DNA from: a virus
Direction: 5' to 3' (one strand)
Length of the DNA: 64,000 bases
Virus record (IMG/VR): IMGVR_UViG_3300035438_001811
Location: 1 to 64,000 of that record
Shown here: positions 10,659 to 35,614 of the stretch, piece after piece
Numbering within the stretch: the stretch's first letter is position 1
How the letters are laid out: every line of letters begins with the position of its first letter
The notes under the pieces: model-generated
What the model saw: only the letters and a program-made list of their open reading frames with translations
Database searches by the model: none
What the model was told of the DNA's origin: nothing
Translations under genes and position numbers: made by a program

Positions 10659-10660
10659 TT

Positions 10661-11020: not shown

Positions 11021-11052
11021 GATATTCGTAATATTTGTTTACAATTAGCTAT

Positions 11053-11607: not shown

Positions 11608-11982
11608 TTAAGAAACTTTTGAAGCCATTCTCGCTCTAGTCTGCGCCGCTGCGATTTTATTCCTTGCTTTTCTCGCTTTTTCGCCTCTTGATTTTTCGAT
11701 CTGCTTTTCCATTTTTTCTCTACCAATCATTCGCAGGGACTCACGAACCATTGGGCATTGTGTTTTTGCCCATGTCGTCTCTTTGACTCTCAAAGGTTCT
11801 ACACCTGACGCATACTCATCATAAGAGTTGTATTCTCTAATTTCAGTAATTCTTCGGCGATATCCATCTCTTGCAGAATCGCGGTTATCCTCTTCAGCCA
11901 TAATCCACATTTTGAAAAATTCAAAATTATCAGAACCAAGGAATACTGATCCGTTGTTTAACATTGCTACTGTGTAAGTCAT
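11608..11982 (-). CDS. hypothetical protein with basic helical tail
   Basis: 124 residues. The N-terminal half (MTYTVAMLNNGSVFLGSDN, FFKMWIMAEEDNR) could be a small alpha/beta fold, and the C-terminal 50 residues are a Lys/Arg-rich helix. It is driven by the promoter at 12020-12049 and has AAGGAG before its ATG. Confidence 0.55.
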   Translation of the reverse strand: MTYTVAMLNNGSVFLGSDNFEFFKMWIMAEEDNRDSARDGYRRRITEIREYNSYDEYASGVEPLRVKETTWAKTQCPMVRESLRMIGREKMEKQIEKSRGEKARKARNKIAAAQTRARMASKVS

Positions 11983-12019
11983 TGCCTTGTCGCTCCTTTG
12001 TTGCTTGCTTTCTGTACTA

Positions 12020-12049
12020 AAGATATCATCACTAAACGAAAGATGTCAA
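12020..12049 (-). promoter_or_regulatory. sigma70-type promoter with conserved spacer
   Basis: In minus-strand sense, TTGACA, spacer TCTTTCGTTTAGTGATGA, TATCTT. The spacer matches that of 10991-11020 at 15 of 18 positions. Confidence 0.7.
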
Positions 12050-12083
12050 CAGGGTAAGCAAACTATTTACATTTCGTTACAAA

Positions 12084-12596
12084 CTACAAATAACCCGCAT
12101 AATCAAACTCAAAAATAATGCTATCCAGTAGCGGCGCTTGTTCTGGCTTTGTCGATGGCGGTGGTAATTGCTTGTATAGACTCAATAGCTTGGATACTTT
12201 CGCCGCTGCTAGTGACAAACCCTCTGATAGATTTTCTTCAGTAATCGCAGTCAAACCAGCAACCGATCTAAAAGCATTGATTTGCGCCAAAGTAAAATTG
12301 TCGATATTGCCATGATCCTTAAGCAATACCCATGACTTAGCCCGAAAATCTACTTCTGAGTTAAGCATAGGTGCGAAGCTATCAAGTACCCTATGTCGAT
12401 AAATCACGATCTCAACGCCTTGATACAGTACTGGACTGCCGTTAATTATTGAGGGGAATGAAAGTCCAGCGTCTTCCAGTGCGGGATCTGGCAGCATTAA
12501 AATACTTGGCTGCACTGTCGCCCCGAAATAGCGAATACCAAGCAGATCGGGAATAGCAGCGAGTATGGCTGTTCTGATTTCAAGCGGTGTTTTCAC
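12084..12596 (-). CDS. putative tail terminator / minor tail protein
   Basis: 170 residues. The start TPLEIRTAILAAIPDLLG, then YQGVEIVIYRHRVLDS and an RAKSWVLLKDHG strand, resembles phage tail-terminator (gpU-like) or head-tail adaptor proteins. The C-terminal LDSIIFEFDYAGYL is a beta strand. It is an isolated structural-type gene among small accessory genes, so the call is tentative. Confidence 0.4.
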   Translation of the reverse strand: MKTPLEIRTAILAAIPDLLGIRYFGATVQPSILMLPDPALEDAGLSFPSIINGSPVLYQGVEIVIYRHRVLDSFAPMLNSEVDFRAKSWVLLKDHGNIDNFTLAQINAFRSVAGLTAITEENLSEGLSLAAAKVSKLLSLYKQLPPPSTKPEQAPLLDSIIFEFDYAGYL

Positions 12597-12707
12597 GATG
12601 GCAACCGATAAAGCTTTGTGCTAATATTGTAAACGCGATCGCTCCTAAGCCTGAGATTTACGCACCGTGTAGATTGTTGATGGCAGTGGATAAAGCGATC
12701 GCATTAA

Positions 12708-12777
12708 CCGAGAGTAGCAAAGTGGTAATGCACCCAGAGTTGATCTGGGGAGTCAGTAGGTTCAACCATGCTCTGTC
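12708..12777 (+). tRNA. degenerate tRNA-Gln-like sequence
   Basis: A D-arm-like GCAAAGTGGTAATGC, then a perfect anticodon stem CCCAG/CTGGG around AGTTGAT. In register the triplet at the anticodon positions is TTG, but position 33 is G instead of the invariant T. The T-loop reads TTCAACC, yet the T-stem pairs poorly (GTAGG against CATGC), and only part of the acceptor stem pairs. It is probably a decayed tRNA-Gln copy. Confidence 0.3.
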
Positions 12778-12778
12778 T

Positions 12779-12850
12779 TGTTTACTCCTACTTTTAATCT
12801 TCATCAGCTTCAAATACTCCCTACCATCAGGATATGCTCGTTGATCTGGG
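12779..12850 (-). pseudogene. remnant of a zinc-ribbon gene (C-terminal end)
   Basis: In the minus-strand sense this encodes PDGREYLKLMKIKSRSKQ, nearly the same as the C-terminal DGREYLRLKKIESRSK of the intact protein at 14463-14678 and its relative at 35682-35897. The cysteine-bearing N-terminal part is absent and the frame runs into the tRNA-like sequence at 12708, so this is a truncated duplicate. Confidence 0.55.
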
Positions 12851-12865
12851 ATGACTTTTTTGTAT

Positions 12866-13126
12866 TCATTTGATTTGCCTCTTTTTGTATTCAATACAAT
12901 CACTAAGCCAAGCTTTTGATGATGACAACAACGCCTTTTTTAATTTTATTGTTGGTTCAACCCCTTGTTCTTTTAATTGTTGAATAGCATTTTTAACAAT
13001 AGAATATTTATGGCTAGACGTTAACCCGTTTATCGAGGCTTGGCTTTCAGCAAGTTTAATCAACTTGTTTATTTCCCTCTTCTTTAAAGCTTTTTTAACT
13101 TCAACCTTCTTTAAGCAACTAAACAT
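12866..13126 (-). CDS. hypothetical basic helical protein
   Basis: 86 residues, Lys-rich and helical (MFSCLKKVEVKKALKKRE, KYSIVKNAIQQLKEQGVE). It might bind nucleic acid, but no motif proves this. It lies between two duplicated gene fragments. Confidence 0.45.
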   Translation of the reverse strand: MFSCLKKVEVKKALKKREINKLIKLAESQASINGLTSSHKYSIVKNAIQQLKEQGVEPTIKLKKALLSSSKAWLSDCIEYKKRQIK

Positions 13127-13175
13127 GATTATCGAAATACCTTCTTTTAAGCACTACGGAATTATTTATCGTTAT

Positions 13176-13270
13176 ACTGTACCTTTACCAAGTATCGCGT
13201 TACATTCACAGCATTCATAATCTTTGCGCCCTTTAACCATCCGCATGGTTTTGCATCTGCAAGCGCCTTT
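13176..13270 (-). pseudogene. truncated copy of the 16880 gene
   Basis: This stretch is about 93 percent identical to 17169-17262, the 5' part of the cysteine-rich gene at 16880-17281 (GACRCKTMRMVKGRKDYECC region). The copy lacks the start codon because the homology breaks where the tRNA at 13272 begins, and the downstream part is also gone. Confidence 0.75.
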
Positions 13271-13271
13271 T

Positions 13272-13343
13272 AGCGGTGTGGAGAAGTGGCATCTCGTGGG
13301 TCTCATAATCCCAAGAACACTGGTTCGATTCCAGTCACCGCCA
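13272..13343 (+). tRNA. tRNA-Met-like (CAT anticodon)
   Basis: D-arm GAGA-AGTGGCA-TCTC, anticodon arm TGGGT-CTCATAA-TCCCA (CAT, one T-T mismatch at the stem base) and a perfect T-arm ACTGG-TTCGATT-CCAGT. The acceptor AGCGGTG/CACCGCC pairs at six of seven positions, with an A-C mismatch at the end. CAT could mean Met or, if modified, Ile. It lies three bases from the convergent rusA-like gene. Confidence 0.6.
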
Positions 13344-13345
13344 TA

Positions 13346-13939
13346 TTAAGCCACACAATGCGCGATCGCTTTCTGAGTCTTGGCTAACTCCTTCTTAAGC
13401 TTATCCACTTTCTTAGTCCCAGCCTTTGACCACTTAAGCTCGGCAACAATATCAGCAATCCTAGCGGCGCGATGTTCGCCAAGTGTGGCGATGAGTGAGG
13501 CTTTGTCGATTAAGTATGGTTCATAACCCCATCGCATTACGACGCTGCTATATAGCGATGATTGAGCCATTAAATCAATCGTAATCACAATAGTATCCGC
13601 AAAAACAGGTTCAGGCGCTTTGCATTGCGAGTAAACAAAATGAAATAAATCCTGATTGCCGTCATCAAATTTTTGTCCAAAGTACTGAGATAAGCTATCA
13701 ATCAAGCCATCTCTCACAGGCTTAAATGCGATCGCTAAGCCGTCATCATCCATTGGTCTATTAGCAGCCGCAAAGCGATGGAAGTGAATGCGTAACTGTG
13801 ATTTAGTATCCCAATCAAAAGCAGACTCAATCGCGCCGCCTTGCTTAAGTGATTGCTTTTCTTTAAGGTGTAGTATCCAGTTGCCACGCCCGTTACTTGT
13901 GTTTTTGGGCGGTTCATCAATGATGTATTGGATTAGCAT
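13346..13939 (-). CDS. RusA-like Holliday junction resolvase
   Basis: 197 residues. RusA resolves four-way junctions in phage recombination and replication intermediates. The active-site pattern is visible: MDDDG at 63-67, AFKPVRDGLIDSL at 71-83, then the DD pair at 92-93, corresponding to the metal-binding aspartates of RusA, followed by a terminal strand (ADTIVITIDL). A C-terminal extension of about 75 residues with Lys-rich helices is longer than E. coli RusA (about 120). Confidence 0.75.
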   Translation of the reverse strand: MLIQYIIDEPPKNTSNGRGNWILHLKEKQSLKQGGAIESAFDWDTKSQLRIHFHRFAAANRPMDDDGLAIAFKPVRDGLIDSLSQYFGQKFDDGNQDLFHFVYSQCKAPEPVFADTIVITIDLMAQSSLYSSVVMRWGYEPYLIDKASLIATLGEHRAARIADIVAELKWSKAGTKKVDKLKKELAKTQKAIAHCVA

Positions 13940-13986
13940 TCAAGTATCCTGCGTATTCAGTTACAGTCATTGCATTAGTCATAGTC

Positions 13987-14277
13987 TTAAAACTCGCAAT
14001 CATCATATTTGGGGCGGCGCAAATCTTGAATCTTTTGCTTTACCTCATAGAACCAAATCAGTAAGCGTTGCCAGATAGTAAGGTCAGGGTCAGGTGCTTT
14101 AACCTTTACGCAATCATCAGCATTGACATAATTACCGCCCTCTAGTTCATCCAAGAACAAGAGCGTTTTGCCATAGCCATAAAAGCAATCAGCGCCATAC
14201 AGTTCGGCTTCTGTCGTGCATTCAGAGCAGTGGTATACATTGCCCTTGTATAGGTAATATTCGTTAGTGTTATTCAT
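13987..14277 (-). CDS. hypothetical protein with CxxC
   Basis: 96 residues. It opens MNNTNEYYLYKGNVYHCSEC and later has LTIWQRLLIWFYEVKQKI, an amphipathic or membrane-proximal helix. Its start overlaps the upstream gene by eight bases. No known family. Confidence 0.5.
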   Translation of the reverse strand: MNNTNEYYLYKGNVYHCSECTTEAELYGADCFYGYGKTLLFLDELEGGNYVNADDCVKVKAPDPDLTIWQRLLIWFYEVKQKIQDLRRPKYDDCEF

Positions 14278-14479
14278 TGTATGAACTCGCTTTGTCTAAA
14301 AACTTTTTTAAATCGTTTAGCGCGGATTCTGGAGTAGTTCCGTTGTCTCGCCAATTTAGTAATACTTTGATTGGGGCGCGTGTCACTTGACTTATTGTCA
14401 AAAGACTTAGCCCCCATTCATCGGCTAAGTCCCAAAACTCTTCATGTACTTCTGTCAACTTGTTAGTGTCGTTGCTCAT
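14270..14479 (-). CDS. small HTH-like protein
   Basis: 69 residues from ATG 14479 (MSNDTNKLTEVHEEF). The stretch SLLTISQVTRAPIKVLLNWR looks like a helix-turn-helix. It could be a small repressor or accessory factor. It overlaps both neighbours, so the three genes are coupled. Confidence 0.45.
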   Translation of the reverse strand: MSNDTNKLTEVHEEFWDLADEWGLSLLTISQVTRAPIKVLLNWRDNGTTPESALNDLKKFLDKASSYNE

Positions 14480-14678
14480 GATTTCTCTTACTCCTACTTT
14501 CAATCTTCTTCAATCTCAAATACTCCCTACCGTCATCAGTCTTAAGCCAGCAAGCTTGACATATATCTCGCTGCTTGGAATAGACTCGTTTACCGCATAG
14601 AGGGCAAATACGCCGCTCTATGTGTGCTGTGCGTTTGGCGTAGTATTTGCGATCATATTCATTGCTGTTTTTAGTCAT
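14463..14678 (-). CDS. zinc-ribbon protein of the DDGREYLRLK family
   Basis: 71 residues. ICPLCGKRVYSKQ and ICQACWLKTDDGREYL form a four-cysteine ribbon, followed by a basic KKIESRSKRNHEQ tail. A paralogue lies at 35682-35897 and a truncated one at 12779-12850. It probably binds DNA or RNA. It ends inside the start of the next gene and its ATG abuts the stop of the gene at 14678. Confidence 0.6.
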   Translation of the reverse strand: MTKNSNEYDRKYYAKRTAHIERRICPLCGKRVYSKQRDICQACWLKTDDGREYLRLKKIESRSKRNHEQRH

Positions 14679-15037
14679 TAAGCAACCTTAGAAAAATTGT
14701 CGTCATAGCCAAGATTTCTCATAATCGCTATGGTAAGTCCCATAGATCCTTTAGCTGTAGTTCTATTGTTAATCCAGAACAAAGCGTCATTGCCAAAAGA
14801 ACTGAAGATAGTTGCGAGTTCTTCATCAGTCAAGCGTCTTGTTTCATATTTTAGAAAACCAGTAGCTAATTTGTTAGCCCATTCAATTTGTGCTGGTGTT
14901 CCTTCAGTGATTGATAAAAATTTTAATCTTGGAAACTTAGCTGCTAATTTATCGCTTTTCATTGCTTTTGCCTTTGTTTTACTTGTCTTGATCCAAGTAT
15001 ATAGATCATTAGCTACCTTGTCAACTACTTTATACAA
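14678..15037 (-). CDS. hypothetical protein
   Basis: 119 residues. It contains EGTPAQIEWANKLATGFLKY and ALFWINNRTTAKG, an arrangement I have seen in uncharacterised phage and plasmid proteins but cannot name. It is preceded by a short gap after the zinc-ribbon gene at 15054. Confidence 0.55.
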   Translation of the reverse strand: MYKVVDKVANDLYTWIKTSKTKAKAMKSDKLAAKFPRLKFLSITEGTPAQIEWANKLATGFLKYETRRLTDEELATIFSSFGNDALFWINNRTTAKGSMGLTIAIMRNLGYDDNFSKVA

Positions 15038-15053
15038 GATTATTTAATCAAGT

Positions 15054-15212
15054 TCAACCTTTTTCAGTCTCTACGCTTTCAACCGTATTAAGATGTTGGC
15101 AACGAGGGCAATACACTTTAGTACCTATAGGCGTTTTAATGTCAGCGCAAGTCCACCACTTCCTACAACGATTGCAGCAGAAATGATATAGATACTCAAG
15201 TGATACTTTCAT
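15054..15212 (-). CDS. 52-residue zinc-ribbon protein
   Basis: A short frame, MKVSLEYLYHFCCNRCRKWW, followed later by VYCPRCQHLN. Two CxxC pairs make a classical zinc ribbon. Its ATG overlaps the stop of the upstream gene (ATGA), which supports real translation. Confidence 0.6.
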   Translation of the reverse strand: MKVSLEYLYHFCCNRCRKWWTCADIKTPIGTKVYCPRCQHLNTVESVETEKG

Positions 15213-15379
15213 ATTGCTCCTACAAGGTTTTTTATTTGCACATTTTGATTAGGTACGATTTTATCTAATCTGCGGATAGTTGCAACGTCTCCTACTAATT
15301 CTTCTATAATCCATACACCGCCTTTAAGTGCGGGAGTAACTACAGTATGTAGCCATACAACGCGATCACCTATTTTCAT
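15209..15379 (-). CDS. 56-residue hypothetical protein
   Basis: It opens MKIGDRVVWLHTVVTP and has GGVWIIEELVGDVATIRRL, a small SH3-like beta pattern (GDRV, GGVWxI, ATIRRL). It is coupled by an ATGA overlap to the zinc-ribbon gene that follows. Function unknown. Confidence 0.55.
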   Translation of the reverse strand: MKIGDRVVWLHTVVTPALKGGVWIIEELVGDVATIRRLDKIVPNQNVQIKNLVGAI

Positions 15380-15405
15380 GTAAACCTTATTTGACGGTAA
15401 TAAAT

Positions 15406-15678
15406 ATGAGTAATCAAACTACGGTAAAAATGTCTGATGAAATTGACTTTTATTTTAGGGAGGAATTAGAAAGGCTTGGCTTTACTATGGATGGTAATGA
15501 TGAAAATCAATTTTTTGCTTTGTGCCTAAATTACTGCATTTATGCCCAAATAAAAGATGATCATGTCTCTTTGTCTTTGAAATATAAAAAGCCCTTAGCT
15601 TGGTTTCGGTTGACTAGGTGGGAACAACTCACGCCTGCGGTTAAGTCCATGTTAGAAATGGTGATAAATAGTATTTAA
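15406..15678 (+). CDS. hypothetical protein
   Basis: 90 residues from ATG 15406 (MSNQTTVKMSDEIDFYFREE). It is acidic, then has IKDDHVSLSLKYKKPLAWFR. It is the only plus-strand gene in this part and is divergent from the gene at 15209. Family unknown. Confidence 0.5.
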   Translation: MSNQTTVKMSDEIDFYFREELERLGFTMDGNDENQFFALCLNYCIYAQIKDDHVSLSLKYKKPLAWFRLTRWEQLTPAVKSMLEMVINSI

Positions 15679-15748
15679 ACCATAAACACAGCAAAGCGAT
15701 CGCCTATGACAGCGATCTGATGAGTGAGGGATGAAAAGTAATCTCTAC

Positions 15749-16750
15749 TTAAGCTTGCAATACCGCAGGGGCGCAATGCTGAGATTTTCGGGTAGCCTTG
15801 CTAATACGTCGTCTCAATCCAGTGCATCCTAGTAGCTGCTTAGCGTCTTCTTCAAGGTTATAGATATTAGTGTGGACTTGGTACAATTCGCGATCGCCTT
15901 TAAAACGCAAATAATGCTTTTCGCCTAAATTATGTTCTAGCCAAAATTCAGGAGTTCTTATTGCATCGTTGCTTGGGTAGCAAATTTGTACACACTCAAT
16001 AGATGGTAAGTCCTTAATTGCCTTAAGGTGCTTTCTAATCGTTTGAGGTGTCCGATTAACTAAATTAGCTATAGTCTCTTGAGAAACGCCATAAGGCACG
16101 AATTGACGGTTAACCAGTAAAAACCTAGTTCCAAGTACCTTTCTAAAAGCCTTGATGCCTGATGCTTTCTCTACCTTTTCTTTAGGGAGATTGCGATCGC
16201 TTAGAATTGACACGTTTTTAAAAATCTTGGATGGTTTAACTACCCGTCTGGTTATTTTCTTTCCTTGGTTTAATTCATTCTCCTCCTTGGTTTTGCGTAA
16301 AGCTCCTTGCTGTGCATTGCGTTGCTTTTGAGCAGCAGTGGCTCTAATGTTATGCGTCCGAATATTATCAAGCTCAGTAGCTTTCTCTTCGTGTATAGCG
16401 CCTAAATTAGATATACCAAGCTCAGAGCAAAGCTTAGTTAAAGCAGAATAGACAAGCCTCACACAATTACCTTTAATCTCAAGCATCCAGAAAACACCTA
16501 ACTTTAGAGCTAAGCGTAAATTCTTTTTAATTGTGGATTCTTTGCGCTTTAAGGTAGTTGCGATCGTCGGGATGTCTAAAACTACAATGCCAGCACCTTT
16601 CCCTTTTTCTCCAGACTTGCCACGCTTTACAAATGACTGCCTATCATAAGAGCGCACAAACAAATACAGCAATTTAACCAAGTGAGGTAATTTATCACTT
16701 TGGCTAAATGCTGTGTATATTGTCGTGTAGTTATGGTAAGATTGTGTCAT
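15749..16750 (-). CDS. winged-helix DNA-binding protein, possible replication initiator
   Basis: 333 residues. An N-terminal winged-helix-like domain (LPHLVKLLYLFVRSYD, IATTLKRKESTIKKNLRLAL) is followed by a long basic linker. A second HTH (SQETIANLVNRTPQTIRKHL) lies at about 225-245, and the Arg/Lys-rich C-terminus ends in CAPAVLQA. A duplicated winged helix is common in plasmid and phage replication initiators, but no Rep catalytic motif is visible, so a transcription regulator is equally possible. Confidence 0.5.
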   Translation of the reverse strand: MTQSYHNYTTIYTAFSQSDKLPHLVKLLYLFVRSYDRQSFVKRGKSGEKGKGAGIVVLDIPTIATTLKRKESTIKKNLRLALKLGVFWMLEIKGNCVRLVYSALTKLCSELGISNLGAIHEEKATELDNIRTHNIRATAAQKQRNAQQGALRKTKEENELNQGKKITRRVVKPSKIFKNVSILSDRNLPKEKVEKASGIKAFRKVLGTRFLLVNRQFVPYGVSQETIANLVNRTPQTIRKHLKAIKDLPSIECVQICYPSNDAIRTPEFWLEHNLGEKHYLRFKGDRELYQVHTNIYNLEEDAKQLLGCTGLRRRISKATRKSQHCAPAVLQA

Positions 16751-25737: not shown

Positions 25738-26030
25738 GCGTAATCAGATCGCATCTTGCTTATATCAATGAGCAAGAGTTACAGCGATCGGCTGAGCTAG
25801 AGGTTATTGCGGCGCGAAATACGTTGGCTACTGGTGATTTTAAAGACCGTGAGAAAGCTTTCCGATCTTTGACACCATCATTGCAGGCATTGCGGAGAAT
25901 GCAAGCCAAAAAGCAGATGAGCGTTAGGTTTGCTAAGAAATTTGCGAAGCTATTTAAGGAAGGCAAAATACCGAATTGGGTAGTTGAAATTTGCGATTAC
26001 GAGACGATTGAATTATTAGCGGGTGATTGA
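25282..26030 (+). CDS. tail assembly chaperone GT (-1 frameshift fusion)
   Basis: Predicted fusion of the G protein through the slippery site to a second frame ending at 26030. Past the site, the -1 frame reads GRRSNRTVKDIEEEWNQIYL and continues without stops through FRDGFGQQRISVIRSHLAYI to the end LLAGD. The T part is protein-like, though its own first possible start (TTG 25824) is far inside the domain. This matches the G/GT arrangement of lambda. About 249 residues. Confidence 0.75.
25611..25617 (+). promoter_or_regulatory. -1 ribosomal frameshift site GGGAAAG
   Basis: In the G frame it reads G GGA AAG, the same heptamer used by lambda G/GT. The slip would pair GGG AAA and continue in the T frame. 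Confidence 0.8.
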
Positions 26031-26031
26031 T

Positions 26032-29000
26032 ATGGCTGATGAGAATTATGCAATTAGAGTTAGTTTTGATGGCATCGACAAGGCGATCGGTGACATCAAA
26101 TTACTGCAATCTGCGATCGGCAATATCAAATTACCTGCACTTAATATCGATTTAAGTAAATTTACTGGCATTGAAAAAACTCAGATTGCATCCGTCGCAA
26201 GAGTAGAAGCTGCTCAAATTGCGTCACAAGCTAAAGTTGACGCAGCTAGATTAACAGGAGCTTCAAAAGTCTCAGCGTTAGAAGTTGGCGCGATCGCTAA
26301 ATTAGAGTCGGCTCAAATAGCAGCTAACGCTAAAGTTTTAGCTGCTAAAGATGGCAATGCTACCAAAGTCGTTAACGCTGAAATAGCAGCGCAATCTAGA
26401 TTAGAAGCTGCGAGAATAGCATCTGCTACAAAAATCAGTAATGCAGAAATATCAACGATCGCCAAATTAGAAGCCGCTAGGATTGCATCTGCCACTAAGG
26501 TTAGTGCTGTAGAAGCCTCAACAATTGCAAAGCTAGAAGCGGCTCAAATAGCTTCCAATGCCAAGATTGAAGCATTGCGATTAAATTTGTCAGCAAAAGC
26601 GATCGCTAATGAAGTGGCAGCAGTTACTAAGATTGAATCAATAAAGATTGCTAGCGATGCAAAATTAGCTGCAAATAAAGACTCTAATGCTGTTAAATTG
26701 CGTACTGCGGAACTAAGTAATGAAAGTAAAATCGAAGCTGCTAAACTTGCCACAACTGCCAAAATAACGGCTGCTGACAGTGCGGCAATCGCAAAATTAG
26801 AAGCGGCGGAATTAGCTTCTAATGCCAAGATTGAAGCTGCTAAAATTGCATCTGCTACTAAACTGGAAATAGCAGAAAAAGCAAGATTAGATAGGCAAAG
26901 AAAAGAGTCAGAAGCGCTAGCAAGAACAGAGTCAGCAAGAGCAGCTAAAGCGATCTCTGACGCTGAAAAATCATCAACAAAACCACAATCAAAAAGCAAT
27001 TCTGATGCAGTAATTGCTCAACTAGAAAAACAAAAAGCTGCTAGCACTGTACGAGTATCTGATGGCGCTGACAAAGAATCCGCCCGAATTGCACAAGAAA
27101 CACTTAGATATAAGCAGCAAATTGCCGCGATTGACGCAAAGATTTTCAACCCTGCGGATATTGCTAACGCTAAAGCTCTAGCGAGTGAAATTAATAAACT
27201 CAATCTTGACAAAATCAAGAAAGGATTTGACGATGCGAGTCCTGTAACTTTTAATCAGTTCATTGGCGCTACTACTGAGAAAGCGCGAGATTTAGCTGAG
27301 CAACTACAAAATACATCACAGACATTAGAACGGATTGGAACTACTTTTAACCAAGTTTCTAGCGCTGCGAATCAGGCATTTTTAGGCTTTGATACTGCCA
27401 AAACTAAAGTAGCGACATTATCTACTCAATCCAACGCTTTTGCTAATACAGCTATCAAGCTATCAAAGGATTTAAACAATCAAGTAACCAGCACCGAAAT
27501 ATTAACAGCACAATATGAAATTCTATCTAGTGGATTTATTAATGCTGCTGATGCATCAGAGATTGCCAGAGTATCGGTATTAGGTGCTAAAGCTGGTTTT
27601 ACTGACACAGCTACGGTAGCTGATGCAACTACCTCAATTTTGAATGCCTATGGTTTAGCTGCTAGCGATGCTGCTAATGTGGTAGACCAATTAGCAGTTG
27701 TGCAGGATAAAGGTAAAACAACGATCGGGCTATTTGCTGGTCAGCTTGGTAAAGTTGCGCCAATTGCTGCAAGTGCGGGCGTAACACTAAACGAGTTAAA
27801 CGCTGCCATAGCAAGCGTTACGATTAAAGGCGTTAAAACCGAGACTGCGGTTAGTGGTATTAGACAGGCGATTGTCAACTTGGTCAAGCCCACGCAATCC
27901 GCACAAAAAGTGTTGGAGGCTATTGGGATCACTAACGCTGCTACAACGCTTAAAACTGAAGGATTAACAGGTGTACTCAATCGATTAAAAGCGGCTGGCT
28001 TAAACACCAGTAGTCAGCTATCTAAAATCTTTACAGATATTGATGGTTTAACTGCTGTTGTCCCTTTACTTAACGACGACCTTAAGAACTTTAATGCAAA
28101 TCTAGTAGCTGTTGGCAATGCATCAGGAAAAGCACAGCAAGGCTTTGATATTGTCGCTAAATCTGCTGAAGGTCAAATTACAGCAGCAATCAACAAAATC
28201 AATGAAGCTTTAGTCAATTTAGGGCGCGGCGCACAGGTAGCTTTTGCGCCATTAGTAGCGGCTGTAGGCGCGGCTGTTGACGTATTCAACCAATTACCCG
28301 CACCATTGCAAACAGTTATAGGCGGCGTTATTGGATTAGTTGGAGGTGTCGCCACATTGGGCGCGGCTCTCACTGCGATCGGCGCGGCTGCCCCTGCTTT
28401 TATTGGTGGACTAAAATTATTTGGCATTCAGGCGGCGGCTTCTACCGTGGCGACTACAGGGCTAGCCACTGCTAACACCGTAACCGCCACATCGTTTGTA
28501 GGCTTAGGAGTAGCAACCAAAGCGGCGGCGGCTGGGTTTGTGACGTTCGCAACTACAGCTACTACCACAGTGACAGGCGCTTTGGTATCTGTTGGAGCAT
28601 TGTTAGCTAAAGGCACGATTCTGGCTGGTACTTTTGCTGTGGTTGCTGTTAAAGCTATTGCGTCTATAGTTGTGGCTATGGCTCCATTAGTGGCAACTTT
28701 AGGGGTTGTCTATTTAGCCTTTGAATCTGTCCGAAATACAGCTAACTTATTTGGCGAAATTAACAGCAATAAAGCTGAGGATGCATTCGACAAAATTCTA
28801 AACAAAAGTACGGCTGTAGATGCGAAATTAAAACAAGCGACTGCTACTTCACAATCGTTTACCGATAAGCTAGCAGGTGGATTTGATAAGGTAGAGAATC
28901 CAATACAAGGGGCGGCGCTTGCAATCACCAATTTAAGCAATGCTTTAATCGGTGCTGAGTCAGGGGCTTCTAAATTTGGTTCGCAATTTGGCTTTATTAC

Positions 29001-30948
29001 TCAACAACAATTAGAGGCGCAAAAGACTGCGATCGCTTATAGTAACGCGATTACAACACTTAGCTCTGGTTTTCAGCCAGCCGTCAATCTTATCGGTAAA
29101 TATGGCACTGGCATTGACTTTGAACGTCGCGCAACTCAGTTGTCAATTAAAGAAAACAAGGAATACCAAAAACAACTAGCTGCTACCAGCGAACGATTAA
29201 AGCAAGAAGTATCCGATCTAGAGGCTATCGGTAAGCAGAAAGGAGTAGACCAAGCTGCTAACAAATTAGAGATTGATTCTCGGAAAACATTGATCGCCCA
29301 ATCGGATCAAAAAATTGCTGTACTCAAAAAGGAAGAGGAAGCGGTTAAGGCTGTATCTGATGCTGAAAGGGATAGAGCTAAACAGCTACGAGAAAACCAA
29401 AACCAAGACGCAGAAAAATCAATCAAGCGCTCCTTTGACGATGGCAAAACCAAGCGCGATCGCGAAAATGCTGATGCTATCAAGGCTATCGAAGAGAAAA
29501 ACGCACTCGCAAAAGGTGAGCTAGATCGCAGACAAGCGCTAGAAACTGAAGCGCTGAAGGAAAAGCAAACCCTAGCTCTACAAGACAAGCAAAGGGCATT
29601 TGATGATACTCAGAACGCCAAAAAGCTACAACTTGAAGATGCTCTTGATGCTAAGAAGCGGGCGAATGAGGAGAAACTCAACGCACTCAAACAGGCATTT
29701 GACGATAAGCAAAACGCGCTTAAAGAACAGAGAGCAGAGAAACAACGTAAGGACGATGAGGCATTTGCAGCGCAACGCGCTCAACGTGACAAACAAGCAA
29801 GTGAGGCTCTATCAGGTGCTAAGCAGCTAATCAGTAATGAGGGTGCGATCGCCACTGCTAAACCAGAAGATCGCGCCAAGATTGCGGCGCAAATCGAAGA
29901 AGAAGAACGCATTAGAGCACAAGCTGCTACTCAAGGCGTAGCTGGTGGTACTGAATCCCAAGAACAATTAGTAGCTAAGGCTAAGCAAATCGCCCAAATA
30001 TCTGCGATTGCCAACGGTGAGGAACAGAAAAAAGTAGAGTTTGCTATTGCTGAACTTGATAAAGCGAACAAAGCTAAGCAAGCTGAAATTGATAAGGCTG
30101 AAGTTGCAAAGCGCACTGAAGAAAAACAAGCTAGTGACAAAGTTTTTGAAGCTGAACAAAATGCTGCTAAGCTTGCCTTTGATGCTGAGCAAAACACTGC
30201 CAAGCTTAACTTTGAAAACACTGTTCTCAAACCTGAAAAGCAAAAGATCGAAGCTGAATTACAAGCGAGTAAATTAGCCTTTGAGCGTGGCGAACTTGCA
30301 GCGCTGAAAACACAACAAGCAGCCGATGAGAGGGCTTTAAAACTTCAGCAAACTAACGAGGACTTAGCAGCTAAGAAAGCTGCTGATGCTGAGTTAGAGA
30401 CGATTAAGCTCGCTCAAAAAGAGAAAGAACTAGCACTTGATCGCGCCTTTGAGGATCAGAAAATTGAACGTGAGAGAGCATTTAAGGAATCTCAGAGAGC
30501 CTTAGATAAAGCATCTGCCATAGAGATTCAACAAATCCTTGGTAAGTCTGCACAGCAAATTATCAGCGCTCTCACGTTAGCTAAAGGTGATTCTAAGTTT
30601 GGGGCTGTAGCTGGTATTGGCACTAGTCCTAAAGGAGATGCTAAAGCTCTAAATAATCAGGATGAAGTAAATAGGGCGGCGTTAGGAGCTAGCACTTTAC
30701 CTAAGTTTGCGCGTGGCGTTACAAACTTTGTCGGGGGTGCGGCATTGGTTGGGGAAAAAGGTGCTGAGCTGGTGACATTGCCTAGAGGCTCTAACGTGCT
30801 ACCAGCAAACCAAACCAAGAACGTGCTTAATAATTCGGGCGGCAATAAAACCTATAACGTAAATGTAACCACTGGCAGTGGTAATGCTACAGAGATCGCT
30901 TTACAGATACAGAGAGAGATGGCACGATCGGCGGCGCTGAGTATGTAG
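26032..30948 (+). CDS. tape measure protein
   Basis: About 1639 residues. The N-terminal 270 residues are Ala/Lys/Ile-rich tandem coiled-coil repeats (KLEAARIASATKIS-like). The core is a phage minor tail domain (STQSNAFANTAIKLSKDL, GLFAGQLGKVAPIAASAGVT, VSGIRQAIVNLVKP), followed by several hydrophobic helices (about 755-900) and a long Lys/Glu coiled coil. FARGVTNFVGGAALVGEKGA and a Gly/Asn tail end the protein. At roughly 0.15 nm per residue the tail would be about 250 nm long. Start ATG 32 is preferred over two in-frame upstream codons. Confidence 0.9.
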   Translation: MADENYAIRVSFDGIDKAIGDIKLLQSAIGNIKLPALNIDLSKFTGIEKTQIASVARVEAAQIASQAKVDAARLTGASKVSALEVGAIAKLESAQIAANAKVLAAKDGNATKVVNAEIAAQSRLEAARIASATKISNAEISTIAKLEAARIASATKVSAVEASTIAKLEAAQIASNAKIEALRLNLSAKAIANEVAAVTKIESIKIASDAKLAANKDSNAVKLRTAELSNESKIEAAKLATTAKITAADSAAIAKLEAAELASNAKIEAAKIASATKLEIAEKARLDRQRKESEALARTESARAAKAISDAEKSSTKPQSKSNSDAVIAQLEKQKAASTVRVSDGADKESARIAQETLRYKQQIAAIDAKIFNPADIANAKALASEINKLNLDKIKKGFDDASPVTFNQFIGATTEKARDLAEQLQNTSQTLERIGTTFNQVSSAANQAFLGFDTAKTKVATLSTQSNAFANTAIKLSKDLNNQVTSTEILTAQYEILSSGFINAADASEIARVSVLGAKAGFTDTATVADATTSILNAYGLAASDAANVVDQLAVVQDKGKTTIGLFAGQLGKVAPIAASAGVTLNELNAAIASVTIKGVKTETAVSGIRQAIVNLVKPTQSAQKVLEAIGITNAATTLKTEGLTGVLNRLKAAGLNTSSQLSKIFTDIDGLTAVVPLLNDDLKNFNANLVAVGNASGKAQQGFDIVAKSAEGQITAAINKINEALVNLGRGAQVAFAPLVAAVGAAVDVFNQLPAPLQTVIGGVIGLVGGVATLGAALTAIGAAAPAFIGGLKLFGIQAAASTVATTGLATANTVTATSFVGLGVATKAAAAGFVTFATTATTTVTGALVSVGALLAKGTILAGTFAVVAVKAIASIVVAMAPLVATLGVVYLAFESVRNTANLFGEINSNKAEDAFDKILNKSTAVDAKLKQATATSQSFTDKLAGGFDKVENPIQGAALAITNLSNALIGAESGASKFGSQFGFITQQQLEAQKTAIAYSNAITTLSSGFQPAVNLIGKYGTGIDFERRATQLSIKENKEYQKQLAATSERLKQEVSDLEAIGKQKGVDQAANKLEIDSRKTLIAQSDQKIAVLKKEEEAVKAVSDAERDRAKQLRENQNQDAEKSIKRSFDDGKTKRDRENADAIKAIEEKNALAKGELDRRQALETEALKEKQTLALQDKQRAFDDTQNAKKLQLEDALDAKKRANEEKLNALKQAFDDKQNALKEQRAEKQRKDDEAFAAQRAQRDKQASEALSGAKQLISNEGAIATAKPEDRAKIAAQIEEEERIRAQAATQGVAGGTESQEQLVAKAKQIAQISAIANGEEQKKVEFAIAELDKANKAKQAEIDKAEVAKRTEEKQASDKVFEAEQNAAKLAFDAEQNTAKLNFENTVLKPEKQKIEAELQASKLAFERGELAALKTQQAADERALKLQQTNEDLAAKKAADAELETIKLAQKEKELALDRAFEDQKIERERAFKESQRALDKASAIEIQQILGKSAQQIISALTLAKGDSKFGAVAGIGTSPKGDAKALNNQDEVNRAALGASTLPKFARGVTNFVGGAALVGEKGAELVTLPRGSNVLPANQTKNVLNNSGGNKTYNVNVTTGSGNATEIALQIQREMARSAALSM

Positions 30949-30977: not shown

Positions 30978-31187
30978 TTATTCATTCTCTACCCAAACAA
31001 TAATTTTAGATGGCTGAATCTTGTAGGCATCGCAGATTTTAGCGATTGAGCCTGTAGATGGTATATGCCAAGGGTTACGCGCTAACTCATAGCCAGTTGT
31101 ACCGCTTATCCCCGTTTCTTTGACGAACTGATAAGCGGTTATTTTTCTTTCTTCCAGAAATTCTTTAACTATATTTCTTAAAGCCAT
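30978..31187 (-). CDS. XRE-family regulator next to the effector
   Basis: 69 residues. FLEERKITAYQFVKETGIS followed by GTTGYELARNPWHIPSTG is a Cro/CI-type helix-turn-helix, and IAKICDAYKIQPSKIIVWVE is its dimer strand. It is transcribed away from the TnpB/Cas12-like gene at 31252 across a 64-base region with palindromes, so it probably regulates itself and the effector. Confidence 0.75.
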   Translation of the reverse strand: MALRNIVKEFLEERKITAYQFVKETGISGTTGYELARNPWHIPSTGSIAKICDAYKIQPSKIIVWVENE

Positions 31188-31195
31188 ATCACAAT

Positions 31196-31251
31196 TAAAA
31201 GCTTGTATTAAAAGCTTGTCAATAGTATCAATACTATGATACTATCAGTAT
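31196..31251. promoter_or_regulatory. divergent promoter-operator of the effector
   Basis: Plus strand: TTGTCA at 31216-31221, 18 bases, TACTAT at 31240-31245. The -10 ends six bases before the effector ATG, which predicts a leaderless message. AAAAGCTTGT is repeated (about 31197 and 31210). AGTATCAATACT and the inverted pair GTATCA/TGATAC overlap the spacer. Confidence 0.6.
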
Positions 31252-32928
31252 ATGACTAGCAATGAAGCCACTACTAAAAAGATAGCTGAATTTAAGTTGT
31301 CTCCCACGATTGAGCAAAGCGCACAAATTGATATGTGGCTTACTCAACTTAAATGGGTATGGAATGTTGGTTTAAGTCTGCTTGAGGAAGATCAGCAACG
31401 TTATTGGAGGGCAAAACAAGAATGGGCAGAGTATAGTCCTGAAGTATGGCAATGGCGAAAATCATGCAAAATCGACGGGATTGAGTATGTAAATCCTGAT
31501 AATCAATACGGGCTTTGCTGTGCTTACTATCCTGATAAATGCGACATCCGCAAACATCGGGATATTGAAGAGCCATTTAAGCACGTTAAAAATTATCGCT
31601 TTATCGCTAATATGCGATGTCCTGATTTTTTGCACCCTATCGATAGCGAATCACGGCGATCTGTTGTGGATAACCTAATTGATGCATGGACTCAGTACCG
31701 CAAGGGGAAAAAAGGCAGACCACGTTACAAAAAGAAAGCTGATAAATTAGAAAGCTTTTCTAACGGCAATGGTCGGATATACGTTAATATTTCGCCCTTG
31801 GGTAATGACAATGCATTAATTGACTATCCAAAGCTAGGGTCAATCAAATGCAAGGGATTCTACCGTCGCTATGCTGGTAATCATACAATTGTACGCATCG
31901 TCAAAAAGGCTGACGGCTATTATGTGCAATTCACTAGCACGGTAGACGTAAAGCCCGTTAAACCAGCAAAAAAGCAAGAAGTAGGCTTAGATTTTGGTGT
32001 AGTCGCTCCTATTGCTGATAGTGATGGAAGATTGCATAAATCAAAACGCTATGCCAAATTGCAAGCTAAGAAATTAGCTCGTATTCAGCGCTCTATCTCA
32101 CGCTCAAAAGATGGCTCTAACCGTCTAAAAGCTAAACGCTCTAAACTAGCTAAAGTGCATCTTAAAATCGCTAGGCAACGCGATCGCTTTATTCATAAGC
32201 TCACATCCAAGTATGTGAGTGAATATCAAAGCATTGCCATTGAGGATACCAAGGTTAAAAATATGGTACGCGCACCAAAGGCGAAAGCTGGTGAAAATGG
32301 CGCGTTTCTACCTAATGGCGCGGCTGCAAAAGCTGGCTTAAATAAAGCGCTTCTTGATGTGGCGATCGGCAAAACAAAAACGATGCTAGAGACTAAATCT
32401 AAAGCATCAGAAAGAATATTTGTGAAAGTACCCGCACCGCACACTTCTCAAGGTTGCTCTCAGTGTGGCTACTATTCCGAAGAGTTTCGACCATCTCAAG
32501 CTGTTTTTAAATGCTTGAATTGTGGTCATGGTGACAACGCAGATAGCAACGCCTCAACCGTTATCCGTAATGTTGCTTTTAAAGGCTTGGTTTTGAAACC
32601 ATACCCCGCTTCATCGGGGGAATTTAAGGGCGTGGATCATGCAACGCATGGGAAGAAGCGCCAACCGAGTAAGACTCGCAAGAGTAAGAAAGGATCGGTA
32701 GGAGAAACATCTACCGCAATCAACCGCGAAAGCGGGGCTGTAAATAGTCTAACCACTCGCGCAAACCCTGAAAACCAATCACCACAAGACTTTGAGCTAT
32801 GGCAAGATTTAAAATCACTATCTAAAGCCAACTCTAAATTGCAATCTCGTAAGCGATCCGCGCAAATCGATCCTAATATTGGCGCTCAGCTTGGTTTTTG
32901 GGATCTGTCTGGTGAAGCTTCTGGTTAA
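31252..32928 (+). CDS. TnpB/Cas12-family RNA-guided nuclease-like effector
   Basis: 558 residues, longer than typical TnpB (about 400). RuvC-I is GLDFGVVAPIADSDG with D247, RuvC-II is IAIEDTKV with E331 and RuvC-III is DNADSNAS with D431, so the catalytic triad is complete. A four-cysteine zinc finger lies between (C402, C405, C421, C424). An N-terminal extension of about 90 residues precedes the wedge/REC-like part, and a basic, Ser-rich C-terminal extension follows residue 445. No tnpA or transposon ends are visible. It ends inside the first repeat of the CRISPR array, so it is best read as a compact type V-U-like effector; a domesticated TnpB is the alternative. Confidence 0.82.
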   Translation: MTSNEATTKKIAEFKLSPTIEQSAQIDMWLTQLKWVWNVGLSLLEEDQQRYWRAKQEWAEYSPEVWQWRKSCKIDGIEYVNPDNQYGLCCAYYPDKCDIRKHRDIEEPFKHVKNYRFIANMRCPDFLHPIDSESRRSVVDNLIDAWTQYRKGKKGRPRYKKKADKLESFSNGNGRIYVNISPLGNDNALIDYPKLGSIKCKGFYRRYAGNHTIVRIVKKADGYYVQFTSTVDVKPVKPAKKQEVGLDFGVVAPIADSDGRLHKSKRYAKLQAKKLARIQRSISRSKDGSNRLKAKRSKLAKVHLKIARQRDRFIHKLTSKYVSEYQSIAIEDTKVKNMVRAPKAKAGENGAFLPNGAAAKAGLNKALLDVAIGKTKTMLETKSKASERIFVKVPAPHTSQGCSQCGYYSEEFRPSQAVFKCLNCGHGDNADSNASTVIRNVAFKGLVLKPYPASSGEFKGVDHATHGKKRQPSKTRKSKKGSVGETSTAINRESGAVNSLTTRANPENQSPQDFELWQDLKSLSKANSKLQSRKRSAQIDPNIGAQLGFWDLSGEASG

Positions 32929-33382
32929 GCGATCGGCTGATTGGAAGCGCAAAGCGCCCGCAAAGCTTTTTAAATGGCTAACCAGTGGGTGAAGCTTCTG
33001 GTTAAGCGATCGGCTGATTGGAAGGGATATCAGAGTCAGAGAGAGAGGCATTAGTCCAAGGTGAAGCTTCTGGTTAAGCGATCGGCTGATTGGAAGTTTG
33101 ATGGTATCCCGATCCCTGATGTGAATAGCAGGTGAAGCTTCTGGTTAAGCGATCGGCTGATTGGAAGAGACCGACATCGACAATATACTATTGAGAGAAT
33201 TAGGTGAAGCTTCTGGTTAAGCGATCGGCTGATTGGAAGGCAGAAAGCATCATAGAGCCATTGCCAATCATTGAGGTGAAGCTTCTGGTTAAGCGATCGG
33301 CTGATTGGAAGTGAATATTCATAAAATCCATTGGAGCTTTTAGACGGTGAAACTAGTGGTTAAGCGATCGGCTGATTGGAAG
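32911..33382 (+). CRISPR. CRISPR array, 7 repeats and 6 spacers
   Basis: Repeats of 37 bases, GGTGAAGCTTCTGGTTAAGC continuing GATCGGCTGATTGGAAG, start at 32911, 32988, 33060, 33131, 33203, 33275 and 33346. Repeats 1-6 are identical; the last has GAAACTAGTGG for GAAGCTTCTGG. Spacers are 40, 35, 34, 35, 35 and 34 bases and all differ. The first repeat overlaps the 3' end of the effector gene, including its TAA. There are no cas1 or cas2 genes nearby. The degenerate last repeat is normal for the distal (trailer) end, so transcription from the effector side fits. Confidence 0.9.
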
Positions 33383-33469
33383 ACCAAATGCGGCGCAAAG
33401 ACAAGATGATTGATGCATTGCTAGAGGCGATCGCAAAGATGAAGTGATATCTAAACGATTGATTAAACG

Positions 33470-33517
33470 CAACAAAAAGACCATTTTCCTGTCATCGGGA
33501 AAATGGTCTTTTTGTTG
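33470..33517. terminator. strong terminator ending the effector-CRISPR unit
   Basis: CAACAAAAAGACCATTTTCC and GGGAAAATGGTCTTTTTGTTG form a near-perfect 20-base stem around TGTCATC. It lies 88 bases past the last repeat. The stretch between holds a short frame (ATGCGGCGCAAAGACAAG to TGA 33446) that I do not trust. Confidence 0.9.
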
Positions 33518-33572
33518 CAAGGGGTGACTCACCGCTAAGGAATAGGGTTTAACCTTGCATGGCTATTTTAGC

Positions 33573-33728
33573 TTAATCCCCATTCAACCGATGTTCCAAC
33601 TCAGGATAATATTCCCGAATCAAGCGCTTGGTTAATGCGCTCGTATCGATGGGGAACGGGTTGTGTACTTTGGGCTTTGGGCTTGCCCTTGGTAGCACCT
33701 TGGTGATATCGAATTGCTCATTTTCCAT
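33573..33728 (-). CDS. 51-residue hypothetical protein
   Basis: MENEQFDITKVLPRASPKPK and later SALTKRLIREYYPELEHRL. Its ATG overlaps the stop of the J-domain gene by 11 bases, so it is coupled to it. Nothing in the sequence names a function. It may be a partner or regulator of the J-protein. Confidence 0.55.
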   Translation of the reverse strand: MENEQFDITKVLPRASPKPKVHNPFPIDTSALTKRLIREYYPELEHRLNGD

Positions 33729-34164
33729 ATGCTCTTCTCAATTCAGGCAACAAATTGATCGCAGTTTCGTAAGCCATTTGCACCTCACGAAATTTGTTAG
33801 GATCGCCGCCCGTATCAGGGTGATGTAATTTCGCCTGTTTGCGGTAAGCAGATTTAATTTCCCTCTCACTATTTGGGAACTTATCCAAGCCCAAAACAGC
33901 AAGAACAGAATCAATCCCTTTATCCCAGAAAGTCTCAACGCTACCCGTCATATTTTCAACTGGCAACGCCTCGACGAATTGCCAAATTGTGAATGTTGCA
34001 CCATGCAAACCGTAGCCTCTGATTTTCCAAGCTCGGTAAGTCACATAGAACTTTGTACCACCCTCAGACGGGCATACGTTATCAATATCCATAGGCGAAA
34101 CATCGAGCATTTTAGCGGCGCGGCGGCGCAATTCGTCGAATGAGAATTTGATTTTGATAGACAT
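33718..34164 (-). CDS. J-domain (DnaJ-like) co-chaperone
   Basis: 148 residues from ATG 34164 (MSIKIKFSFDELRRRAAK). A C-terminal J domain (about 88-140) has KSAYRKQAKLHHPDTGGD with the HPD motif at 115-117, needed to stimulate DnaK/Hsp70. There is no Gly/Phe or zinc-finger region. The N-terminal 85 residues are unique and could bind a phage client protein. Confidence 0.8.
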   Translation of the reverse strand: MSIKIKFSFDELRRRAAKMLDVSPMDIDNVCPSEGGTKFYVTYRAWKIRGYGLHGATFTIWQFVEALPVENMTGSVETFWDKGIDSVLAVLGLDKFPNSEREIKSAYRKQAKLHHPDTGGDPNKFREVQMAYETAINLLPELRRAYGK

Positions 34165-34168
34165 TGGT

Positions 34169-34804
34169 TTACCCGTTAATTTTGCAAGCTTTAGCTGAAG
34201 AAAACCAAACTGAATCAGAATATTTTGCAGCTTCTGAGACTGAAGCAATAAAAACAGATGCATGGTAATCACCATAGCCAAGATTTATTGTGGTTTCAAG
34301 ATCGTCTGCTGTAACAATTTCAGCCCAATCACAAAAATCCGCAAAGTGCCTGACATACCCGATAGTTGTTTCGATGTCAAATTGTGCATGGGACTTGTCC
34401 TCATGACTAAAGCTCAAATAGGTAAGCTCATCAACAGCACTAAGGAATGCGTCAACTACAGCGTCTTTAGCCAGTTTCAGGACTTGGTAATCATCCTTAG
34501 TTAGCTCTAATTGGCAGACAGGGATAGGGAATCTATAGAGCTTGTCACCAATAATACAAACTTTAATTTCAAGCCCAGAGATGTTATTTGTGAGTTGATA
34601 TTCCTGAACTTGATCCCGAAACTCATGATAACAGCCAACCTCAAATAATCTTTGCGCTCCCAAAATAGAGCCTAGTGGTGTTTGCTTTGCGATTTCTTCG
34701 GCATTATCAGGCATAGGGAATGTGCGCTCACCATTGACGCAAGCCATTCTCTCTATTTCTAGAATTTTAGTTAGCTCTTCAGTTGTATAAACTTTGTCAA
34801 ACAT
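34169..34804 (-). CDS. hypothetical protein
   Basis: 211 residues, with CQLELTKDDYQVLKLAKDA and FDIETTIGYVRHFADFCDW. Mixed alpha/beta, acidic. It lies four bases upstream of the J-protein start, so the two are probably co-translated and the product may be its client. No family recognised. Confidence 0.55.
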   Translation of the reverse strand: MFDKVYTTEELTKILEIERMACVNGERTFPMPDNAEEIAKQTPLGSILGAQRLFEVGCYHEFRDQVQEYQLTNNISGLEIKVCIIGDKLYRFPIPVCQLELTKDDYQVLKLAKDAVVDAFLSAVDELTYLSFSHEDKSHAQFDIETTIGYVRHFADFCDWAEIVTADDLETTINLGYGDYHASVFIASVSEAAKYSDSVWFSSAKACKING

Positions 34805-34816: not shown

Positions 34817-35614
34817 CTACACCTTCACAACTTTATAGCCAAGATTGAGATCGATCTGATGACCATCCATGATCACACCATGACCTCGCAATGCCTTGAT
34901 AATGCGTTCGCAACCTTTCCAACTAAACACGGGCTTCTGATATACCGCGCCATTAGGCAATGTCACAGGCGTTAGTTTTGCAAAGCCACGTTGCACAAAA
35001 TCCGCATAGGGTTGATTAGTATCCTTGCTAAGAATCTTGACATCTTGACTGCAAAGAAACTTTCTAAAATCCTTCTCTTTATATTTGGGAATTGCGAGAC
35101 ATTTAAACAACTCACGCACATCTAGCCAAGTCTCGGAGTCCATGACGGTATCATACACATCGGCTTTAGGTTGCAAGACTTTGATCTCTTCTTTGAGCGC
35201 TTCCTTAGCTTCTATCTCAGAAGCCAAAAGCCTCAATGCCTCAGAAAATGTTTGAGGTAGTGCGGGTTGCGATGGAACTAACTCGACTTTACCAGTCGTC
35301 ATGAGTTCATCAGTCCAAATATCTACTTGTACCGCAAACTCATCACTACACCATTGAGCAAAACGGATCGCTACTTTAGGGTGTCCCCATGTGCCTTGAT
35401 TTTGTGAGTCGCCACCTTGAATGACTTGCACCAAGTCCGTTATCTTGATCTGGATAACGCTTTCAAGAGCTTTTAAATAAGACTTTGTGGACTTGAGGTT
35501 ATTCCAATGACCAAACAATTTACCACTGGCTTGCGCCATATCGGTTAACGAAACATAGCGATCGCTGCGAATACGGATAGCGCGATCATTCCAATTCTTG
35601 ATAAGATTAGACAT
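34817..35614 (-). CDS. KilA-N/KilAC antirepressor
   Basis: 265 residues. The N-terminus is KilA-N (IRSDRYVSLTDMAQASGKLF, LESVIQIKITDLVQVIQGGD, GTWGHPKVAIRFAQWCSDEF). The C-terminus is KilAC (WLDVRELFKCLAIPKYKEKD, then KPVFSWKGCERIIKALRGHG). The KilAC part is nearly the same as that of the Bro-N gene at 5807-6634. Such proteins modulate repressors or replication. Confidence 0.85.
   Translation of the reverse strand: MSNLIKNWNDRAIRIRSDRYVSLTDMAQASGKLFGHWNNLKSTKSYLKALESVIQIKITDLVQVIQGGDSQNQGTWGHPKVAIRFAQWCSDEFAVQVDIWTDELMTTGKVELVPSQPALPQTFSEALRLLASEIEAKEALKEEIKVLQPKADVYDTVMDSETWLDVRELFKCLAIPKYKEKDFRKFLCSQDVKILSKDTNQPYADFVQRGFAKLTPVTLPNGAVYQKPVFSWKGCERIIKALRGHGVIMDGHQIDLNLGYKVVKV

Follow-up and report, generated by a model that had tools for sequence, protein, structure and literature searches.

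The window analysed here is a stretch of 64,000 nucleotides of viral DNA, positions 1 to 64,000 of the 69,632-base IMG/VR virus record IMGVR_UViG_3300035438_001811. The record has matches to portal, large terminase, DnaB-like helicase and tape-measure proteins and therefore belongs to a tailed phage. This cyanophage, whose hosts are freshwater cyanobacteria, carries a compact CRISPR (clustered regularly interspaced short palindromic repeats) locus, composed of an effector gene of the V-U2 (C2c8-like) kind and an array. To judge from its sequence, the locus is a real phage CRISPR unit of a known, little characterised kind. The unit is probably working, and its scaffold RNA appears to be dual-coded with the effector.

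The effector gene (31252-32928, + strand) encodes 558 amino acids. As the initial annotation had it, the product is a compact TnpB/Cas12-type protein with an intact RuvC triad (D247, E331 and D431) and a zinc finger (CxxC pairs at 402 and 421). The triad and the zinc-finger cysteines are invariant over 19 aligned relatives. The triad is canonical, unlike the altered RuvC triad that defines type V-M (Cas12m). Profile searches place the protein nearest to type V-U2, the outcome that would favour a CRISPR effector: the PADLOC Cas12u2 profile matches at E 6.7e-107 (357 bits), a Cas12f-named profile is near-equal at 353 bits, and Cas12u1, which we take to be the V-M line, matches only at 2.9e-8. 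Pfam recognizes OrfB_IS605 and TNB domains, and the NCBIfam guided_TnpB model gives 192 bits, exceeding its cut-off of 100. A place inside an IS605 clade had been named as the contrary outcome. A quick unrooted tree of 44 proteins sets 24 TnpB rows apart with a support of 99, and the window protein falls outside them. It forms one group with the proteins of loci L003 and L006 (support 100), which joins the C2c8 members L136 and L057 at a support of 88; the C2c8 rows do not all fall on a single branch. We call the protein V-U2-like, and not an IS605 TnpB.

The array (32911-33382, + strand) consists of seven 37-nt repeats, spaced 71-77 nt from start to start, and six spacers, all different and 34-40 nt long (spacers 1-6, + strand, at 32948-32987, 33025-33059, 33097-33130, 33168-33202, 33240-33274 and 33312-33345), exactly the number of repeats and unique spacers first counted. 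The last repeat copy has three changes, in its 5' part. The array was originally said to follow the gene directly; the two do adjoin, but repeat 1 overlaps the gene and contains its stop codon (32926-32928). The terminator-like hairpin behind the array is a perfect 21-bp inverted repeat with an 8-nt loop and a T-rich arm (33469-33518, + strand). It is a likely terminator, without an entry in the list of a consensus terminator scan. Rfam gives three sub-threshold matches near it and none in the region of the candidate scaffold RNA described below. The array is not a chance arrangement because in a sister phage (L003/L004) almost identical repeats hold an entirely different set of spacers, and the chromosome of Pseudanabaena sp. 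FACHB-1998 (L006) pairs the gene with 33 related repeats.

Spacer targets and their flanks

The search for targets covered 38 Pseudanabaenaceae genomes, and the matches were then inspected base by base. Four of the six spacers match Pseudanabaenaceae DNA, three of them in plasmid-like elements and one in hepT. The targets are thus plasmid-like elements and a defence locus of the host, where the initial annotation had expected other phages. Spacer 3 matches at 33/34 within a plasmid replication gene of the CyRepA1 family (246 bits against a cut-off of 200); the same contig also carries a MobA-like relaxase. Spacer 4 matches at 32/35 within the hepT toxin gene of a HepT/MntA pair that is flanked by cas3' and cas10d in a type I-D locus. 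Both of these targets sit deep within coding regions. Spacers 1 (34/40) and 6 (30/34) match one element in L082, 2.5 kb apart, and a similar element in L083 is matched by the same spacers at 29/40 and 28/34. The target of spacer 1 is an open reading frame (ORF) of 90-124 amino acids that is present in each of eight loci, L082, L083 and L086-L091.

These eight loci (in L082 at 7941-16085) constitute a Pseudanabaenaceae plasmid-like family that shares the small conserved protein (KKAPAxLF) matched by spacer 1 and, in part, also has FtsK-like, recombinase-like and replication genes; they are likely to be plasmids. The type I-D locus with the toxin-antitoxin pair between cas3' and cas10d occupies L085 228-9827, and the HepT/MntA pair possibly guards it.

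In the sister phage L003, two of the three full spacers are matched, one at 35/36 outside any ORF of at least 70 amino acids, 0.3 kb from a CyRepA1-like ORF (139 bits, below the cut-off), and the other at 33/34, on the L087 contig, in an ORF that has no Pfam family. The host array of L006 has 32 spacers with two clear matches besides weaker ones, to an IS200 TnpB gene that occurs in several genomes (36/37) and to a weakly recombinase-like ORF (35/35); it gave only weak phage hits (E 8) and no plasmid hits. One spacer of the phage system L154 has five hits in 72,556 plasmid records, all of them Planktothrix agardhii plasmids (E 1e-3 to 0.7). Its protospacer matches at 32/36 in the two plasmids inspected and lies 1.2 kb from a DUF3987 gene.

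Two other kinds of target were considered and rejected. At the threshold applied, the six spacers match nothing in the window other than the array, and among 50,697 phage records the array has one weak, unrelated hit. A scan of IMG/VR with core patterns of spacers 3, 4, 5 and 6 found nothing but the phage's own array (L193) and, with the degenerate pattern of spacer 6, one more contig, L194. The window array has three weak hits in unrelated bacteria in the plasmid collection. When arrays L165, L151 and L155 were compared with phages, the strongest hits were repeats of phage PaV-LD, L155 having weak hits in addition; the L147 array had no phage hits, and the L155 array had two weak plasmid hits in unrelated bacteria.

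The three bases preceding the protospacer (positions -3 to -1) read RTY in six of eight cases (ATC, GTT, GTC, GTT, ATC and GTC), the set consisting of one protospacer per spacer, the best match. RTY has a background frequency of 0.076, and six matches occurred in none of 5000 random sets; the information at -3 to -1 was equalled by some window of the 12-nt flank in 8 of 5000. These figures are generous because the motif was noticed before it was tested. A ninth protospacer, that of L154 (GTT), was found later and fits. The 3' side of the protospacers has no comparable signal. The flank of L003 spacer a is ATG. Two flanks vary with the target: that of spacer 6 is GCT in L082 and GTT in L083, and that of L006 spacer 8 is ATC or GTC depending on the genome. 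The protospacer adjacent motif (PAM) of type I-D is GTN in Synechocystis and GTH in Microcystis, according to PMC10212523. RTY resembles it, so that the motif may stem from I-D acquisition.

The 3' end of the effector gene as a candidate RNA

The 3' end of the gene, approximately its last 118 codons (about 32587-32928, + strand), probably also encodes a scaffold RNA, akin to a trans-activating CRISPR RNA (tracrRNA). It is marked by low synonymous divergence and a raised ratio of nonsynonymous to synonymous divergence (dN/dS). Between the window and L006, synonymous divergence drops from 0.967 in codons 1-440 to 0.354 in codons 441-558, and dN/dS increases from 0.117 to 0.65. Between the window and L003, dN/dS increases from 0.102 to 1.2 on few changes, synonymous divergence being low (0.057) in codons 1-130 as well. 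Constraint at the RNA level, together with a relaxed protein tail, would give such a pattern. An AlphaFold model of the protein (mean predicted local distance difference test score 57, predicted template modelling score 0.39) has low confidence from residue 455 onward; the predicted disorder of the tail is weak evidence because the model is poor and few alignment rows reach the tail.

A conserved hairpin motif, TAC-N4-CTTNNN-N4-GRA, lies inside the gene at 32602-32628 (+ strand), whereas in L056 it follows the stop codon. Of its five pairs, four change on both sides in 14 distinct rows that had been preselected for pairing. The pair counts left out L132 (3/4 pairs) and rows of the same sequence, and the structure alignment left out L036 (stop codon) and L044. 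Because these counts used rows chosen for pairing, a search for the pattern without a pairing requirement is the fair test. In 52 V-U2 3' regions, several of them near-identical, it gave 17 hits, 16 with all four pairs, and in other loci seven hits, none with four pairs. When pairing was required, a scan of every locus (2.98 million bases) gave 41 hits, all but one at V-U2 3' ends.

The extent of the anti-repeat varies. There are 22 paired bases in L147, the anti-repeat is split in L049 and L148, and the window has only the candidate CCAATCA (32775-32781, + strand), which pairs with TGATTGG of the repeat. Duplex energy was not significant at any single locus and gave p 0.03-0.10 across 10 loci; for this reason pairing was then judged by a helix score against swapped repeats. 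In 18 loci, the pairing is better with the repeats of the same locus than with those of another (p 5e-5 to 1.1e-3; control region 0.47-0.68). With L147 and near copies removed, the 15 remaining loci give p 0.0006-0.02 (control 0.29-0.57). Several ranges of region and repeat were tried in these tests. Since V-U2 loci as a group pair better with their own repeats, the tracrRNA is probably carved from the effector gene, whose 3' end evolves partly like RNA.

Relatives, array turnover and neighbourhood

The same phage was found in another sample (L002; 98.3-100% identity over the pieces compared). In the sister phage, neighbouring pieces are 75-91% identical in DNA and the cassette of the effector and its upstream helix-turn-helix (HTH) gene is 95.3% identical; in L003 the final two repeats are separated by a 12-nt 'spacer' (7982-7993), probably the result of a deletion. 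Only the L006 genome matched the effector at E 1e-40 among the 38 genomes of its family. C2c8 is uncommon, being found in 4 of 386 cyanobacterial genomes at E 1e-75 (two above the cut-off) and, in the order of G147, in 21 of 388 genomes at 1e-60 (16 above the cut-off). Among 20 cellular C2c8 loci, viewed with about 1.5 kb on each side, the array is downstream in seven, including L135 where it overlaps the stop codon, and possibly also in L137, and upstream in three. Of 47 viral loci found by alignment, 27 carry an array whose start lies between -26 and +147 relative to the stop codon; one of the 27, L145, is the window's own phage. The layout, initially thought distinctive, recurs in these viral relatives and in Aphanizomenon phage vB_AphaS-CL131 (PMC6293099).

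Some relatives lack part of the unit. L130, L131, L132 and L133 score over the C2c8 family cut-off and have the D and E of the RuvC site replaced (GIDxG to G[IV]SLG, ED lost); there is no array in about 1.1 kb downstream, and the scaffold hairpin motif is kept (in L132 with 3/4 pairs). They are a possible nuclease-dead, array-less V-U2 line. Planktothrix phage PaV-LD (L192; HQ683709.1) has, at 3468-3680, two decayed V-U2-type repeats and, upstream of them, a stretch that looks like an anti-repeat, with no effector between; this would make it an isolated phage with an orphan tracrRNA and a mini-array.

Fourteen viral contigs of one repeat family contain 46 distinct spacers, and some of these contigs have identical arrays. 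Six members have effectors 98.9-99.6% identical to that of L152. L152 and L158 have five distal spacers in common and differ in the gene-adjacent ones, a pattern that looks like gene-proximal addition. The effectors of L157 and L152 are 78% identical and their repeats are unrelated; repeat and effector can therefore separate within one phage group. The initial annotation reported no tnpA, cas1 or cas2. Pfam identified HTH_26, DnaJ and KilA-N/ANT in three neighbouring ORFs and no tnpA-like gene, transposon ends not having been searched, and no Cas1 was found in the phage record, Cas2 being no target of the search. Cas1 was likewise found in none of 14 further viral records, many of them fragments, nor in genomes G000, G002, G003, G001, G406 and G409; it is present in G147 and G215. 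As there is no Cas1, the unit, described earlier as self-contained, is not so for spacer acquisition. Yet the arrays of L152 and L158 differ only gene-proximally, which suggests acquisition in trans as the simplest reading.

The locus was also assigned to a tail-gene operon. It does come after the tape-measure gene (26023-30948), but the other genes of its cassette are mostly on the opposite strand. A divergent gene of the Cro/C1 type (HTH_26; 30978-31187, - strand) may be a regulator. A possible operator (31194-31245), comprising a 13-nt tandem repeat (31194-31219) and a palindrome (31222-31245), lies between it and the effector. Both the gene and the letters of the putative operator recur upstream of L003, the latter identically; the gene is absent from the examined upstream stretch of L006. 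A gene for a DnaJ-domain protein (33718-34281) is located just 3' of the array on the opposite strand. Two anti-repressor-type genes (5744-6634 and 34817-35614) are in part 73% identical in DNA (6237-6628 against 34823-35214).

Proposed function and known systems

The computed parts of the unit, its family, the differing arrays, the target matches, the flank motif and the RNA-level signals are best explained by a phage-borne V-U2 CRISPR system with an in-gene scaffold RNA, RTY-guided cutting of plasmid-like and defence targets, and acquisition in trans. We give this reading a probability of about 0.68. A single transcript would comprise the effector gene, the scaffold RNA overlapping its 3' coding end, and the array, and would end at the hairpin. 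The scaffold would pair with the repeats of the CRISPR RNA (crRNA), and the effector with its RNA pair would locate DNA beside 5'-RTY and cut it with the RuvC site. The targets would be plasmid-like elements of the host and, through spacer 4, the toxin gene in its type I-D cas locus, so that the phage might benefit from the removal of competing elements and from damage to a defence locus. Spacers would be acquired through the Cas1-Cas2 of another party. A more far-reaching proposal is tentative, and we think it somewhat more likely wrong than right: that the tracrRNA, still inside the coding sequence, is a live intermediate between the omega-RNA of TnpB and a free tracrRNA, and that cyanophages use V-U2 units of this dual-coding kind, supplied with spacers in trans by the Cas1-Cas2 of the host, which clear plasmid-like elements and hit the toxin-guarded I-D locus during infection.

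Several results weigh against the cutting system with an in-gene scaffold. The NCBIfam C2c8 score, 303 bits, is below the curated cut-off of 350. Spacer 5 has no match, spacer 2 has a weak one (25/35) that was not counted, the counted matches bear 1 to 6 mismatches, and two of the eight flanks (GCT and ATG) are outside RTY. Synonymous divergence between the window and L006 is already 0.497 in codons 331-440, the hairpin pattern is missing in 35 of the 52 V-U2 3' regions, and the stability of the scaffold region is not unusual (z -0.82). The window anti-repeat has 7 bases and, alone, a duplex energy p of 0.90; in PaV-LD-like contigs the best anti-repeat candidate is upstream of the gene. L161 and L162 have two proximal spacers in common and differ distally, contrary to simple proximal addition.

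Three other explanations were weighed. The effector might bind without cutting and repress genes, as Cas12m does. A regulatory role was proposed by the CL131 authors for their V-U2 locus (PMC6293099), and a RuvC-dead C2c8 group exists (L130-L133); the intact triad, here and in the 19 relatives, and the position of the spacer 3 and 4 targets deep in coding regions make this unlikely. Slightly less likely still is that the array is a phage mini-array serving a host system, type I-D Cascade, with another role for the TnpB-like gene. The flank is similar to the I-D PAM cited above, the phage has no Cas1, and a target-carrying genome has an I-D locus. Against this, the only long repeat-like run among the 38 Pseudanabaenaceae genomes is the V-U2 array of G001 itself, the repeat adjoins the effector in many phages, and it is with the effector-end region that a locus' own repeats form the best pairing. 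That the gene is an ordinary IS605-type TnpB which came to lie next to an array is very improbable, in spite of the Pfam domains and the guided_TnpB score, given a protein outside the TnpB rows of the tree, a hairpin shared with other V-U2 loci and a gene-array junction whose recurrence in phages and cyanobacteria largely contradicts it, transposon ends not having been searched.

To our knowledge, V-U2 systems have never been shown to function since they were first listed. For the V-U2 cutting system favoured here, the closest precedent is CL131, in which the 2018 report (PMC6293099) found ten spacers with a V-U2 effector, a single partial target and no tracrRNA. The two are alike in being cyanophages with a TnpB-like V-U2 effector (about 36% identical), an array just downstream and no other cas gene reported; the window differs in its in-ORF scaffold candidate, better matched spacers and flank motif. 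Anti-repeat and hairpin candidates were also found in CL131 in the present analysis. The FACHB-1998 locus has a gene 77-80% identical, a related repeat that overlaps the stop codon and no Cas1 found in its genome; it differs in its 33 repeats, in its clear targets and in having no HTH gene in the upstream stretch examined. IS200/IS605 TnpB is a related nuclease, whose guide scaffold (omega-RNA) overlaps the 3' end of its gene; its elements are without an array and it occupies a separate branch of the tree. TranC systems are reportedly TnpB-CRISPR intermediates in which the omega-RNA is split into tracrRNA and crRNA. Bearing on such a split, the V-U2 loci have the group-level anti-repeat signal and the hairpin.

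PMC12607003 mentions relatives of type V, among them TnpB, that viruses encode close to arrays, and the 2025 classification (PMC12669027) counts about 50 cases in which TnpB is inferred to be associated with an array or an adaptation module. Phage CRISPR directed against host defence and plasmid CRISPR directed against plasmids are reviewed in PMC11656645. That review describes plasmid type IV-A, V-M and Vibrio phage ICP1 CRISPR as systems of mobile elements against host defence or rivals, as proposed here, and type IV-A as borrowing the host acquisition machinery. These have other effector types, and the present case would set a phage against plasmid-like elements and an I-D-associated toxin gene. 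In the titles and abstract openings searched, most subscription papers falling outside, no V-U2 tracrRNA inside the gene and no V-U2 phage spacers against plasmids were recognised. A phage V-U2 effector with an array was thus already known from CL131; the spacer targets, the RTY flank and the candidate in-gene scaffold RNA are new.

As the locus provides a scaffold RNA candidate, a motif on the target side and specific targets, the activity of the system is directly testable. The locus offers a place to study the transition from the TnpB guide RNA to the tracrRNA, and it suggests that phages use CRISPR against plasmids.
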